41,897 nucleotides of DNA from Sedimenticola sp. (GTDB lineage: Bacteria > Pseudomonadota > Gammaproteobacteria > Chromatiales > Chromatiaceae), in the NCBI GenBank assembly GCA_027008705.1, contig JALVEB010000032.1, positions 1 to 41,897 of the forward strand, given 5' to 3'. Positions 21,606 to 27,241 of this stretch are shown piece after piece. The translations under genes were made by a program, and so were the position numbers. Under the pieces are notes generated by a model. It was not told the DNA's origin. It saw only the letters and a list, made by a program, of their open reading frames with translations, and ran no database searches. Numbering within the stretch: position 1 is the stretch's first letter; each line of letters begins with the position of its first letter.

Positions 21606-21977
21606 ATGTCGAAATCCCCCGGACGCATTCTGGCCCTGCTGCTCGCCTGCCTGATCGGCTTCTCGCCGGCGCGGGCGGCTTGGCAGGGCTTGGCGTCTGC
21701 TTCCGTCGCGTCGGAAGAGGCGCGCTCCGCCTCCCATCACTCGATGGACGGGCGTCATGCGGCCGGGCCGTCCGCGCCCGCCTGCCAACACTGCAAGGCC
21801 GCTGACTGCTGTGGCGGCAGCCATTGCCTGGCCGGTCATTGCGCGGTGTGCGTCGCGATGCTGCCGGTCACGCTGCGCCTGCCGCCGGTCGCCGGTGCCA
21901 GCACGCGCGCCGAATTCTCGCCCATGATGCCGTTGTCCGGCATCGTCTTCCCGCTGTATCGTCCGCCCCGGGGCTGA
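21606..21977 (+). CDS. small exported Cys/His-rich protein, first gene of the copper cluster
   Basis: Signal-peptide-like N-terminus and CQHCKAADCCGGSHCLAGHCAVC cluster; directly upstream of CopA. Confidence 0.65.
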   Translation: MSKSPGRILALLLACLIGFSPARAAWQGLASASVASEEARSASHHSMDGRHAAGPSAPACQHCKAADCCGGSHCLAGHCAVCVAMLPVTLRLPPVAGASTRAEFSPMMPLSGIVFPLYRPPRG

Positions 21978-23940: not shown

Positions 23941-24648
23941 ATGATGAAGAAATTCTCAGCTATTCTGGTCTCCCTCCTGTTGACGATCCATCTGGCGTGG
24001 GCCGGCGGCATGGAAGACGACCCCTTTCTCGCGATGTTCAAGCTCGACCAGTTCGAATGGCAGGATGCCGAAGGCGCCGACGCCCTGAGTTGGGATGCCC
24101 AGGCCTGGTTCGGCAAGGATCTGCACAAACTGTGGATCAAAACCGAGGGCGAGTTCATCGACGGTCAGGCCGAAGACGCCGAAGTCCAGCTGCTCTACAG
24201 CCGGGCCATCGCTCCGTACTGGGACCTTCAAGCGGGTTGGCGACGAGATATTCGTCCATCTCCCGAGCGTGACTGGTTCGCGCTCGGCGTCAAGGGGCTT
24301 GCGCCGTACTTCTTCGAGATCGACGCTCAACTGTTCGTCGGCGAAGCCGGTCGCCTCGGCGCGCGCTTCAAGGCCGAATACGAACTCCTGTTCACGCAGC
24401 GCCTGGTATTGACGCCGGAACTGGAACTGAACTGGTACTCCGGCGATGATCCCGGGCGCGGTCTGGGCAGCGGCCTTTCCGACGCCAGCCTCGGCTTGCG
24501 TCTGCGCTACGAAATCCGGCGCGAGTTCGCTCCCTATATCGGCGTTGAATGGTCACGCGTATTCGGCGCCACCGCCGATTTTACCGAGGCGGAAGGCGGC
24601 GACATCCAGGATACCCGGCTTGTCGCGGGCATCCGCGCCTGGTTTTAG
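23941..24648 (+). CDS. copB: copper resistance protein B, outer membrane
   Basis: Signal peptide, then MFKLDQFEWQ...ALSWDAQAWFGKDLHKLWIKTEGEFIDGQAEDAEVQLLYSRAIAPYWDLQAGWRRD; typical CopB; adjacent to copA. Confidence 0.95.
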   Translation: MMKKFSAILVSLLLTIHLAWAGGMEDDPFLAMFKLDQFEWQDAEGADALSWDAQAWFGKDLHKLWIKTEGEFIDGQAEDAEVQLLYSRAIAPYWDLQAGWRRDIRPSPERDWFALGVKGLAPYFFEIDAQLFVGEAGRLGARFKAEYELLFTQRLVLTPELELNWYSGDDPGRGLGSGLSDASLGLRLRYEIRREFAPYIGVEWSRVFGATADFTEAEGGDIQDTRLVAGIRAWF

Positions 24649-24731
24649 GCGCATTTTTTGTACCGGACGGGTACACTCGAAGCGGCCTCCCGACGGGAGG
24701 CCGAAACCACCGAAAATGAGGAGAACATTCC

Positions 24732-25292
24732 ATGAAAACATCGATTACACAGAGCGCATTGAGCGCGGCCCTGTTGCTCGCCATCGCGGCGGGCACCGCG
24801 AACGCCGACGAGGCGGTTTCCGCAGCCAGCGACGCCGCGACCACGGCCGGCCACGCCGCGAATGACGCCGCGCGGGCGGCGGGCGAGCGTGCCGCCGAGG
24901 CCGGCGGCGGCCAGGTCGCGAAGCCGGGCATGGGACCTGCCGGCATGCCGATGATGCAGGGCAATATGCCCGGCATGGGGCGCATGGGCATGCCGATGCC
25001 GGGCTACATGCCGGGCATGGGGCGCGGGGGCATGCCGATGGGGCGCGGCCCGATGGGTGGAGCGCCGCAAGCGGGCGAGCCCAACGGCGGCAATGCCAAC
25101 GCGCCGGGCAACCAGGGCATGACGCCTGGCATGGGACGAGGCATGCCGATGCGCGGTCCCGGCATGGGCATGGATCCCCGTCGGATGCGCGCGATGATGC
25201 AGATGAAACGCCAGCATATGCAACGCATGGAACAGCACCTCGCCAACATCGAGGCATTGTTGCGGGAGCTGGTGGAGCAGGGCAGGAAATAG
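24732..25292 (+). CDS. exported Met/Gly/Pro-rich protein with a C-terminal Met-rich helix; unknown function
   Basis: MKTSITQSALSAALLLAIAAGTANADEA signal peptide, repeated GMPM/PGMGR motifs, C-terminal MQMKRQHMQRMEQHLANIEALLRELVEQ; followed by a terminator. Confidence 0.8.
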   Translation: MKTSITQSALSAALLLAIAAGTANADEAVSAASDAATTAGHAANDAARAAGERAAEAGGGQVAKPGMGPAGMPMMQGNMPGMGRMGMPMPGYMPGMGRGGMPMGRGPMGGAPQAGEPNGGNANAPGNQGMTPGMGRGMPMRGPGMGMDPRRMRAMMQMKRQHMQRMEQHLANIEALLRELVEQGRK

Positions 25293-25321
25293 GCCGGATC
25301 GAACTCGCTTGCTGGTTTCCG

Positions 25322-25352
25322 CCGCCGGGGCCTGCGCTCCGGCGGTTTTTTT
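25322..25352 (+). terminator. Rho-independent terminator after the Met-rich gene
   Basis: CCGCCGG-ggcctgcgct-CCGGCGG-TTTTTTT. Confidence 0.88.
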
Positions 25353-25627: not shown

Positions 25628-26146
25628 ATGGAAGCCTTTCTTGCCGGTGTCGAACGCCGGGCTTTTGTCATGGCGGAACTGGCGACCCACGATCGCGAAG
25701 AGGCGCTGGACCTGGTTCAGGACGCGATGCTCGTCTTCGCCAAGCGTTATGCGCGGCGTCCCCGGGAGGAATGGCCGCCCCTGTTCCATCGGATACTGCA
25801 AAACCGCATTCGTGACTGGTATCGGCGTCGTCATGGCCGTGGACGCTGGTGGGGGCGCCTGGGTTGGTCGGGTCGGGACGAGGAGGATACCGTCGACCCG
25901 ATCCAGCAGGCGCCCGACACCCATGCGGTCACCCCGGAACAGGCATTGCAGAACGACGAGACCCGGGAACGCATCGTACGAGCCGTGGGGCGATTGCCGG
26001 CACGTCAGCAACAAGCCTTTCTGCTGCGCGTATGGGAGGGTTTGGACGTGAAGCAGACGGCACGCGCGATGGGTTGCTCCAGTGGCAGTGTCAAGACCCA
26101 CCTGTCGCGCGCGATGGCTGCGCTGAGAAAGGAGTTGGGCGAATGA
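25628..26146 (+). CDS. RNA polymerase sigma factor, ECF/sigma-70 family
   Basis: EEALDLVQDAMLVFAKRY...WPPLFHRILQNRIRDWYRR...IVRAVGRLPARQQQAFLLRVWEGLDVKQTARAMGCSSGSVKTHLSRAMAALRKELGE. Confidence 0.92.
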   Translation: MEAFLAGVERRAFVMAELATHDREEALDLVQDAMLVFAKRYARRPREEWPPLFHRILQNRIRDWYRRRHGRGRWWGRLGWSGRDEEDTVDPIQQAPDTHAVTPEQALQNDETRERIVRAVGRLPARQQQAFLLRVWEGLDVKQTARAMGCSSGSVKTHLSRAMAALRKELGE

Positions 26147-26526
26147 GCGAATCCTCTTCGGAGGCTGACAAGATGGCGCTGACACGGGCGCTCGACGCCC
26201 GTGTCGAAGCGCTCGATGGCGAGGTCCTGGAACGGCTGCGACGCGCGCGTCGGCAAGCGGCGCGACAAGCCGATCGTTCCGTCAAACCCTGGTTTCCTCC
26301 TGCTGGTTTGCATTGGGCCGCCGGGGTCGCGGCGTTTGCCGTATTGGCGGTGGGTCTTGGCTTCTGGTGGCAGGCCGCGCGGCAGCCGCTGCCCGCCGCC
26401 CTGGACGATCTCGACGTATTGGCCGGCAGCGAGGATCTGAACCTGGTGCGCGACCTGGATTTCTACCTCTGGTTGGAACAGGACGCCGCGCTGGACGAGG
26501 GACAGCCGGCGCTCGACAAGACATGA
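26143..26526 (+). CDS. single-TM protein, DUF3619-like, probable anti-sigma-like partner
   Basis: ATGA overlap with the sigma gene; one TM (WAAGVAAFAVLAVGLGFWW), then ...LPAALDDLDVLAGSEDLNLVRDLDFYLWLEQD. Confidence 0.75.
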   Translation: MSESSSEADKMALTRALDARVEALDGEVLERLRRARRQAARQADRSVKPWFPPAGLHWAAGVAAFAVLAVGLGFWWQAARQPLPAALDDLDVLAGSEDLNLVRDLDFYLWLEQDAALDEGQPALDKT

Positions 26527-26765
26527 AGCGTGGCCTGGCGGCGGTCTGCATGCTGTTCCCCCTGTCCGCGTTGGGCCAGGAGCCAGCGGATACGCCGGGT
26601 ATCGAACTGTTGGAATACCTCGGGCAATGGCGGGACGATCCGGATGAGTCGGCGGGATGGACCGATCCGGTGGAACTCTACGCCGCCGGCATGCTGGGCG
26701 GGGCGGACGAGTCGCCTCGGCGGGAGTCCGCGCCGGTCACCGACAAGGAGCACGAAGCGCAATGA
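26523..26765 (+). CDS. small exported hypothetical protein of the sigma operon
   Basis: MKRGLAAVCMLFPLSALGQEPADTPGIELLEYLGQWRDDPDESAGWTDPVEL; overlapping start/stop on both sides. Confidence 0.7.
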   Translation: MKRGLAAVCMLFPLSALGQEPADTPGIELLEYLGQWRDDPDESAGWTDPVELYAAGMLGGADESPRRESAPVTDKEHEAQ

Positions 26766-27241
26766 TCCGTCTGCTGATAGTGATGTTGTTGATCCTGGCG
26801 TCTCCGAGCCGGGCCGCCGGAACGAGTTGGGGCGATCTCTCCCGCGCGCAACGCAAGGTGATCGGCCTGAGCGAGTCGCGTTGGGAAGCGCTGCCGGCCG
26901 CGCGCCGGGAACGCCTGCTGCGTGGCGCCGAACATTGGCTTGGGATGTCACCGGAGGAACGCCGGCGGGCGCGAAGGAACCTGCGCCTGTGGAAGGAGAT
27001 GACACCCGGGGAACGTCGTTTCGTGCGACGCAAGTTCAAGGAGTATCAGGCGCTCCCCGCGCGGAAGAAGGCGCGCTTGCGCCGCCTCAAGCGCTGGTTC
27101 CAGAACCTGCCTCCGGAAAGAAAACGGCGGATCCGCCAACGCTGGCGCCAGGCGAAAGACAAAAAGGCCCTGCTGCGAAAAGGCTTGCATCAGGCGCGGC
27201 GCAAGCGCGCCAGACAACCCCGCCCGGCGCAACGGCGGTAG
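26762..27241 (+). CDS. DUF3106-type exported basic protein
   Basis: Signal peptide and repeated W..LP..R..L/MSPEERRRARRNLRLWKEMTPGERRFVRRKFKEYQ...LPPERKRRIRQRWRQ. Confidence 0.82.
   Translation: MIRLLIVMLLILASPSRAAGTSWGDLSRAQRKVIGLSESRWEALPAARRERLLRGAEHWLGMSPEERRRARRNLRLWKEMTPGERRFVRRKFKEYQALPARKKARLRRLKRWFQNLPPERKRRIRQRWRQAKDKKALLRKGLHQARRKRARQPRPAQRR

Follow-up and report, generated by a model that had tools for sequence, protein, structure and literature searches.

A family of methionine-rich exported proteins linked to copper resistance genes in Gammaproteobacteria, candidate periplasmic Cu(I) buffers

We analysed a stretch of 41,897 nucleotides from Sedimenticola sp. (the window) and found that the Met-rich exported protein encoded next to its copA and copB genes, hereafter X, belongs to an unnamed family that recurs beside copper resistance genes. 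Judging from its sequence and its neighbours, X is probably a periplasmic Cu(I) buffer that would act like SilE and PcoE, a reading to which we give a probability of about 0.6. The involvement in copper handling is supported by a genomic context that goes well beyond adjacency in one genome. How Cu(I) is handled in the periplasm, from the P1B-ATPase to the outer membrane, is one of the less well understood parts of bacterial resistance to copper. The X family, which lacks a library model, accompanies copA-copB-ATPase clusters in several gammaproteobacterial families, with sulfur oxidisers and Endoriftia, a tubeworm symbiont, among the carriers. It offers a defined protein and a signature with which a periplasmic role in Cu(I) handling can be tested, and would put a name on proteins that have no model in Pfam or NCBIfam.

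The original prediction described an exported, Met-dense protein of 186 aa with a signal peptide and a C-terminal helix, and all these traits are borne out. The reading frame is open (Table 1) and encodes 27 Met, including the initiator. After a signal peptide that ends in GTANA, just before DE, 26 of the 161 residues of the mature chain are Met (16%), an excess with a binomial P of ~3e-13 when a typical Met content of 2.5% is assumed. X has only three His and no Cys. In the AlphaFold2 model, built from a 36-member alignment, residues 149-185 are predicted to form a helix with pLDDT of ~95, and residues 63-144 mostly have pLDDT below 50, i.e., they are predicted to be disordered. On a helical wheel, M155, M158, H162, M166, and H169 span ~80 degrees, and I173, L176, and L180 prolong the same face.

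Table 1. Features of the X locus, in window coordinates.
Feature	Position	Strand	Basis
copL-like small exported protein, Cys/His cluster	21606..21977	+	NF033807, E 4.6e-4, below model cut-off; same position in sister genome L093
copA, multicopper oxidase of the PcoA type, itself with a Met-rich segment	22100..23932	+	TIGR01480, E 3e-261
copB, outer-membrane copper resistance protein without Met/His-rich N-terminal extension	23944..24648	+	PF05275, E 3e-91
X, Met-rich periplasmic protein, 186 aa	24732..25292	+	ORF read and family profile searches
Predicted Sec signal peptide of X, residues 1-25	24732..24806	+	Sequence; Ala25 conserved in at least 90% of 36 homologs
Disordered Met/Gly/Pro-rich segment of X, residues 66-147, 20 Met in 82	24927..25172	+	Alignment, AlphaFold2
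Two 42-bp tandem repeat units within the Met-rich segment	24953..25040	+	Sequence
Conserved C-terminal helix of X, residues 149-185, signature HMxxMExxxxNIExLLxxLV	25176..25286	+	Alignment, AlphaFold2
Terminator-like hairpin (11 pairs) followed by a T run, after X	25321..25346	+	Sequence

The genes of the window come in the order copL-like, copA, copB, and X. The profile matches to copA and copB agree with the position originally given for X, after these two genes; the copL-like gene upstream of copA had been overlooked. X adjoins copA-copB in the sister genome L093 as well. The terminator that X was said to have for itself corresponds to the strong hairpin in the last row of Table 1. Another terminator-like hairpin overlaps the copB stop, with a hairpin of 9-10 bp next to it, before X (24635-24703, RNA fold z -2.5), and neither is obviously conserved in L093. 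X could have a transcript of its own or depend on read-through. It may also be induced by copper. Downstream of X, positions 25628-27241 encode an ECF sigma factor of the PRK09047 type and then a DUF3619 protein, with a DUF3106 protein farther along. Regarding CopB across the window's order (L081-L135), nearly all copies are without the Met/His-rich N-terminal extension, which is kept only by the genomes G262, G265, and G266, all of one genus.

Profile searches with X against Pfam-A, NCBIfam, and the PDB gave no convincing family, in line with the earlier remark that none was recognisable, and tblastn against plasmid records found no detectable relative. Metal_resist and Spy/CpxP-like models (PF13801 and relatives) gave at best 0.016, in three of the 36 members and not in the window protein, and stayed below the gathering score. 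The comparison of the 36 members with NCBIfam gave no match to a MXKDX/Met-rich peptide model at E<=0.1, a result that is informative only if the library contains such a model. A first search for relatives returned six homologs. Scanning a single genome for each species of bacteria and archaea with the conserved C-terminal peptide then gave 38 loci, all labelled as Gammaproteobacteria or subgroups of it, among which are Sedimenticola, Marichromatium, Thiolapillus, Thiotrichaceae, and Endoriftia. Profile searches made without a sequence pattern identified the family in 46 of the 210 genomes of the window's order (48 loci in 21 genera) and in 11 genomes outside it, from 369 genomes drawn from the class.

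Members of the family share the signal peptide, the Met-rich middle, and the C-terminal helix with its HMxxMExxxxNIExLLxxLV signature. They are 86 to 234 aa long; Met makes up 11-27% of the mature chain, MPM motifs number 0 to 12, and the median count of His is three. The repeat region is highly variable and the last 35 residues are conserved. Residues H162, M166, E167, N172, I173, E174, and L176 are identical in 36/36 members and M163 in 35/36; since the pattern behind the 38 loci itself demanded ME and NIE, the conservation is unbiased only for H162, M163 (35/36), L176, L177, and V181. In members retrieved without the pattern the helix persists with some residues exchanged, e.g., NME or NIQ for NIE. 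One member, at L138 4133-4582, has the C-terminal helix motif doubled in tandem and lies beside a YHS-type Cu-ATPase.

The family is strongly associated with copper genes. Within the order we took CopB (PF05275) and the Cu(I) P1B-ATPase (TIGR01511) as markers, with a threshold of 5 kb. Fifteen of the 48 loci lie within this distance of a marker, where random placement would give 0.53 (Poisson P ~3e-17); because related genomes lack independence, a fairer measure than the count of loci is that of genera, with copper-linked X in 11 of the 21. Outside the order, in loci drawn without a sequence-pattern filter, 8 of 11 are within 5 kb of copA, copB, or the gene of a Cu(I)-exporting ATPase (L152, L153, L154, L155, L157, L158, L160, L161); the neighbours were assigned to CopA (TIGR01480), CopB, Cu-ATPase, or a CueR/ZntR-like MerR protein. 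Of the other three, L159 and L162 are without copper linkage, and L156 has SHOCT and HMA-like genes near X but no marker in the stretch read. The linked loci belong to the window's own family and to six families outside the order. As a matched control, none of the 36 copies of MsrP in the same 46 genomes is within 5 kb of the copper markers where the two share a contig. The original prediction was exposed to finding homologs away from copper genes; the opposite was found, both in the frequencies of cop-locus co-occurrence given above (15/48 against 0.53 expected, and 8/11) and in a recurring gene order. The latter consists of copL-copA-copB, at least one of DUF4399, DUF302, cytochrome c, and DUF411 (CopG-like), then X, sometimes a MerR gene, and a YHS-domain P1B-ATPase, SHOCT, and HMA. 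It is found in distant genera, and Sedimenticola selenatireducens DSM 17993 carries it twice, with one X in each cluster. RND heavy-metal efflux genes occur near X only in G236 (~6.7 kb) and G226 (~16 kb), and MFP/OMF genes in L028, L043, and L049; these were not counted.

About two thirds of the loci in the order (33/48) have no marker gene within 5 kb, although many of these genomes have short contigs and some copper linkage may be missed. In one genus, X and the copA-copB locus are at separate places. One genus has X paired to a DUF4399 gene close to a regulator of the NtrC type, and in a second genus X is near a gene for a trypsin-like protease. The DUF4399 gene accompanies X repeatedly, both inside copper clusters (L082 5041-5481, L152 3604-4032) and elsewhere. 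Since it is next to X also within these two clusters, the X-DUF4399 pair may be a mobile module.

From these data we infer that X binds Cu(I), oligomerises, and buffers the metal. Exported by Sec to the periplasm, the protein would offer, in its disordered Met-Pro-Met/Gly repeats, many soft thioether ligands for Cu(I) forming numerous weaker sites, whose capacity would be set by the number of repeats. In the amphipathic helix, the face carrying M155, M158, H162, M166, and H169 would be shared with the hydrophobic stripe formed by I173, L176, and L180; this common face makes self-association of the helices, with a Cu(I) site shared between them, probable. Pairing would bring together Met and His of two chains, an arrangement that suits trigonal or tetrahedral Cu(I) sites, and the i/i+3/i+4 spacing of Met and His follows the logic described for the helices of SilE (PMC5008109, PMC10080550). 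X could thus hold Cu(I) arriving from the P1B-ATPase or from outside until it is oxidised by the CopA oxidase or cleared by CopB-dependent resistance. Precedents for such a metal sponge are PcoE and SilE, the former being regarded as a first-line sponge for copper (PMC7558416). We propose more tentatively, as a possibility that has the odds against it, a sponge of tunable capacity in which metal binding is coupled to self-association of the helix: the shared Met/His site of its N-terminal half would be completed only when helices pair through the hydrophobic C-terminal half, and expansion or contraction of the tandem Met-Pro-Met repeats would set the storage. The points against the buffer reading are the unlinked loci of the order (33/48), the genus in which X is apart from copA-copB, and the presence of only three His in X.

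The Met-rich sequence by itself would also fit an oxidant scavenger. The surface methionines of X would then be sacrificially oxidised by hypochlorite or by copper-generated oxidants and repaired by methionine sulfoxide reductase. Hypochlorite scavenging is known for periplasmic Met-rich peptides, and X is in the same composition class: like MrpX and BcrX, it is periplasmic, small, and very rich in Met (PMC4623255, PMC8315932). There is also the ECF sigma gene downstream of X (25628-26146). However, the latter belongs to another set (PRK09047 type, beside DUF3619 and DUF3106 genes) and is separated from X by the terminator of X; the contig of L093 stops short of the matching position. The genes of MrpX and BcrX accompany msrPQ and a sigma/anti-sigma pair of the sigF/nrsF type, whereas X is tied to copper genes and never to msrP: MsrP is present in 34 of the 46 genomes, yet 0 of its 36 copies are within 10 kb of X. 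The members also match no NCBIfam model convincingly. The known systems being encoded with msrPQ, the lack of this linkage in all 46 genomes disfavours hypochlorite scavenging, and we consider an oxidant sink improbable. It is hardly probable either that X is a general envelope protein with no metal role, e.g., a repeat protein serving structure or adhesion, and came to lie in copper islands by drift. Many loci are indeed outside such islands, with DUF4399 or envelope-stress-like neighbours, but the enrichment of X beside copper genes is far above chance across many genera and other orders, and the helix has invariant His and Met.

Two other explanations keep the link with copper. X could be a metallochaperone that passes Cu(I) specifically to the CopA oxidase or to CopB, or takes it from the ATPase, without storage, with the helix as a docking element and the repeats as a flexible arm. 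Several genera have X with copA-copB on one side and the ATPase gene on the other, which fits this idea, as does the helix, far better conserved than the repeats as a binding surface would be. CutF, which like X is small, exported, and encoded with a multicopper oxidase, is a precedent for an oxidase needing a dedicated Cu-binding partner (PMC8456105); it is defined by a CxxxC motif and a PPR tail (PMC7558416), whereas the X of the window has no Cys. However, several linked loci have the ATPase without CopA or CopB in the stretch read, and X is not beside CopB in most of the genomes that carry CopB. Hence X has no single obligatory client, and the chaperone is a rather doubtful alternative. 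Finally, X could provide in trans what many PcoB/CopB proteins have in cis, a disordered region rich in Met and His. This N-terminal domain resembles X in being disordered, Met-rich, periplasmic, and part of the same type of operon, and it is essential in the PcoB of Caulobacter (PMC12509749). X differs from it in being encoded on its own, with a signal peptide and a conserved helix. In the order, the CopBs adjacent to X are all without it. On the other hand, so are most CopBs of the order that have no X, the CopB beside X in L152 retains its Met/His extension, and many X loci have no CopB nearby. We therefore regard provision in trans as very improbable. The rule that X would occur only beside CopBs without the domain also failed, as such CopBs are common without X and L152 is a counter-example.

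X, as a putative Cu(I) buffer, is best framed as a new family within a known functional class, the periplasmic Met-rich copper-binding proteins, SilE having been compared by sequence and PcoE, CopM, and MrpX by description. SilE and PcoE are, like X, small, Sec-exported, and encoded with copper or silver resistance genes, and their helices also have Met and His at i/i+3/i+4 spacing (PMC5008109, PMC7558416). They are disordered when apo, as the middle of X is predicted to be, and fold on binding Cu(I) or Ag(I). X is not a SilE homolog: comparison with SilE from an E. coli plasmid gave a BLASTP E of 79 and a hhalign probability of 4%, with only the signal peptide aligned. SilE has ten His, in MxxH/HxxM motifs, against three in X (family median 3), and X differs from it by the Met-Pro/Gly repeats and the single conserved C-terminal helix. 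CopM of Synechocystis is a periplasmic copper-binding protein, as X may be, and is likewise encoded beside copper resistance genes (PMC4335983).

Other Met-rich exported proteins occur near copper genes. The one at L139 1010-1516 (G257), 1.5 kb upstream of a Cu-ATPase, has a related but different terminal helix, LDLIDARLAKIETLLERLL, and perhaps represents a sister family of X. Just upstream of copL-copA-copB, L082 (486-1067) and L102 (201-815) encode Met/Gly-rich exported proteins with LTPEQQ- or LSPAQQ-like motifs in the C-terminal part. Small c-type cytochromes with Met-rich N-termini are found inside copper clusters at L089 5663-6118, L138 3143-3622, and L129 2644-3315.
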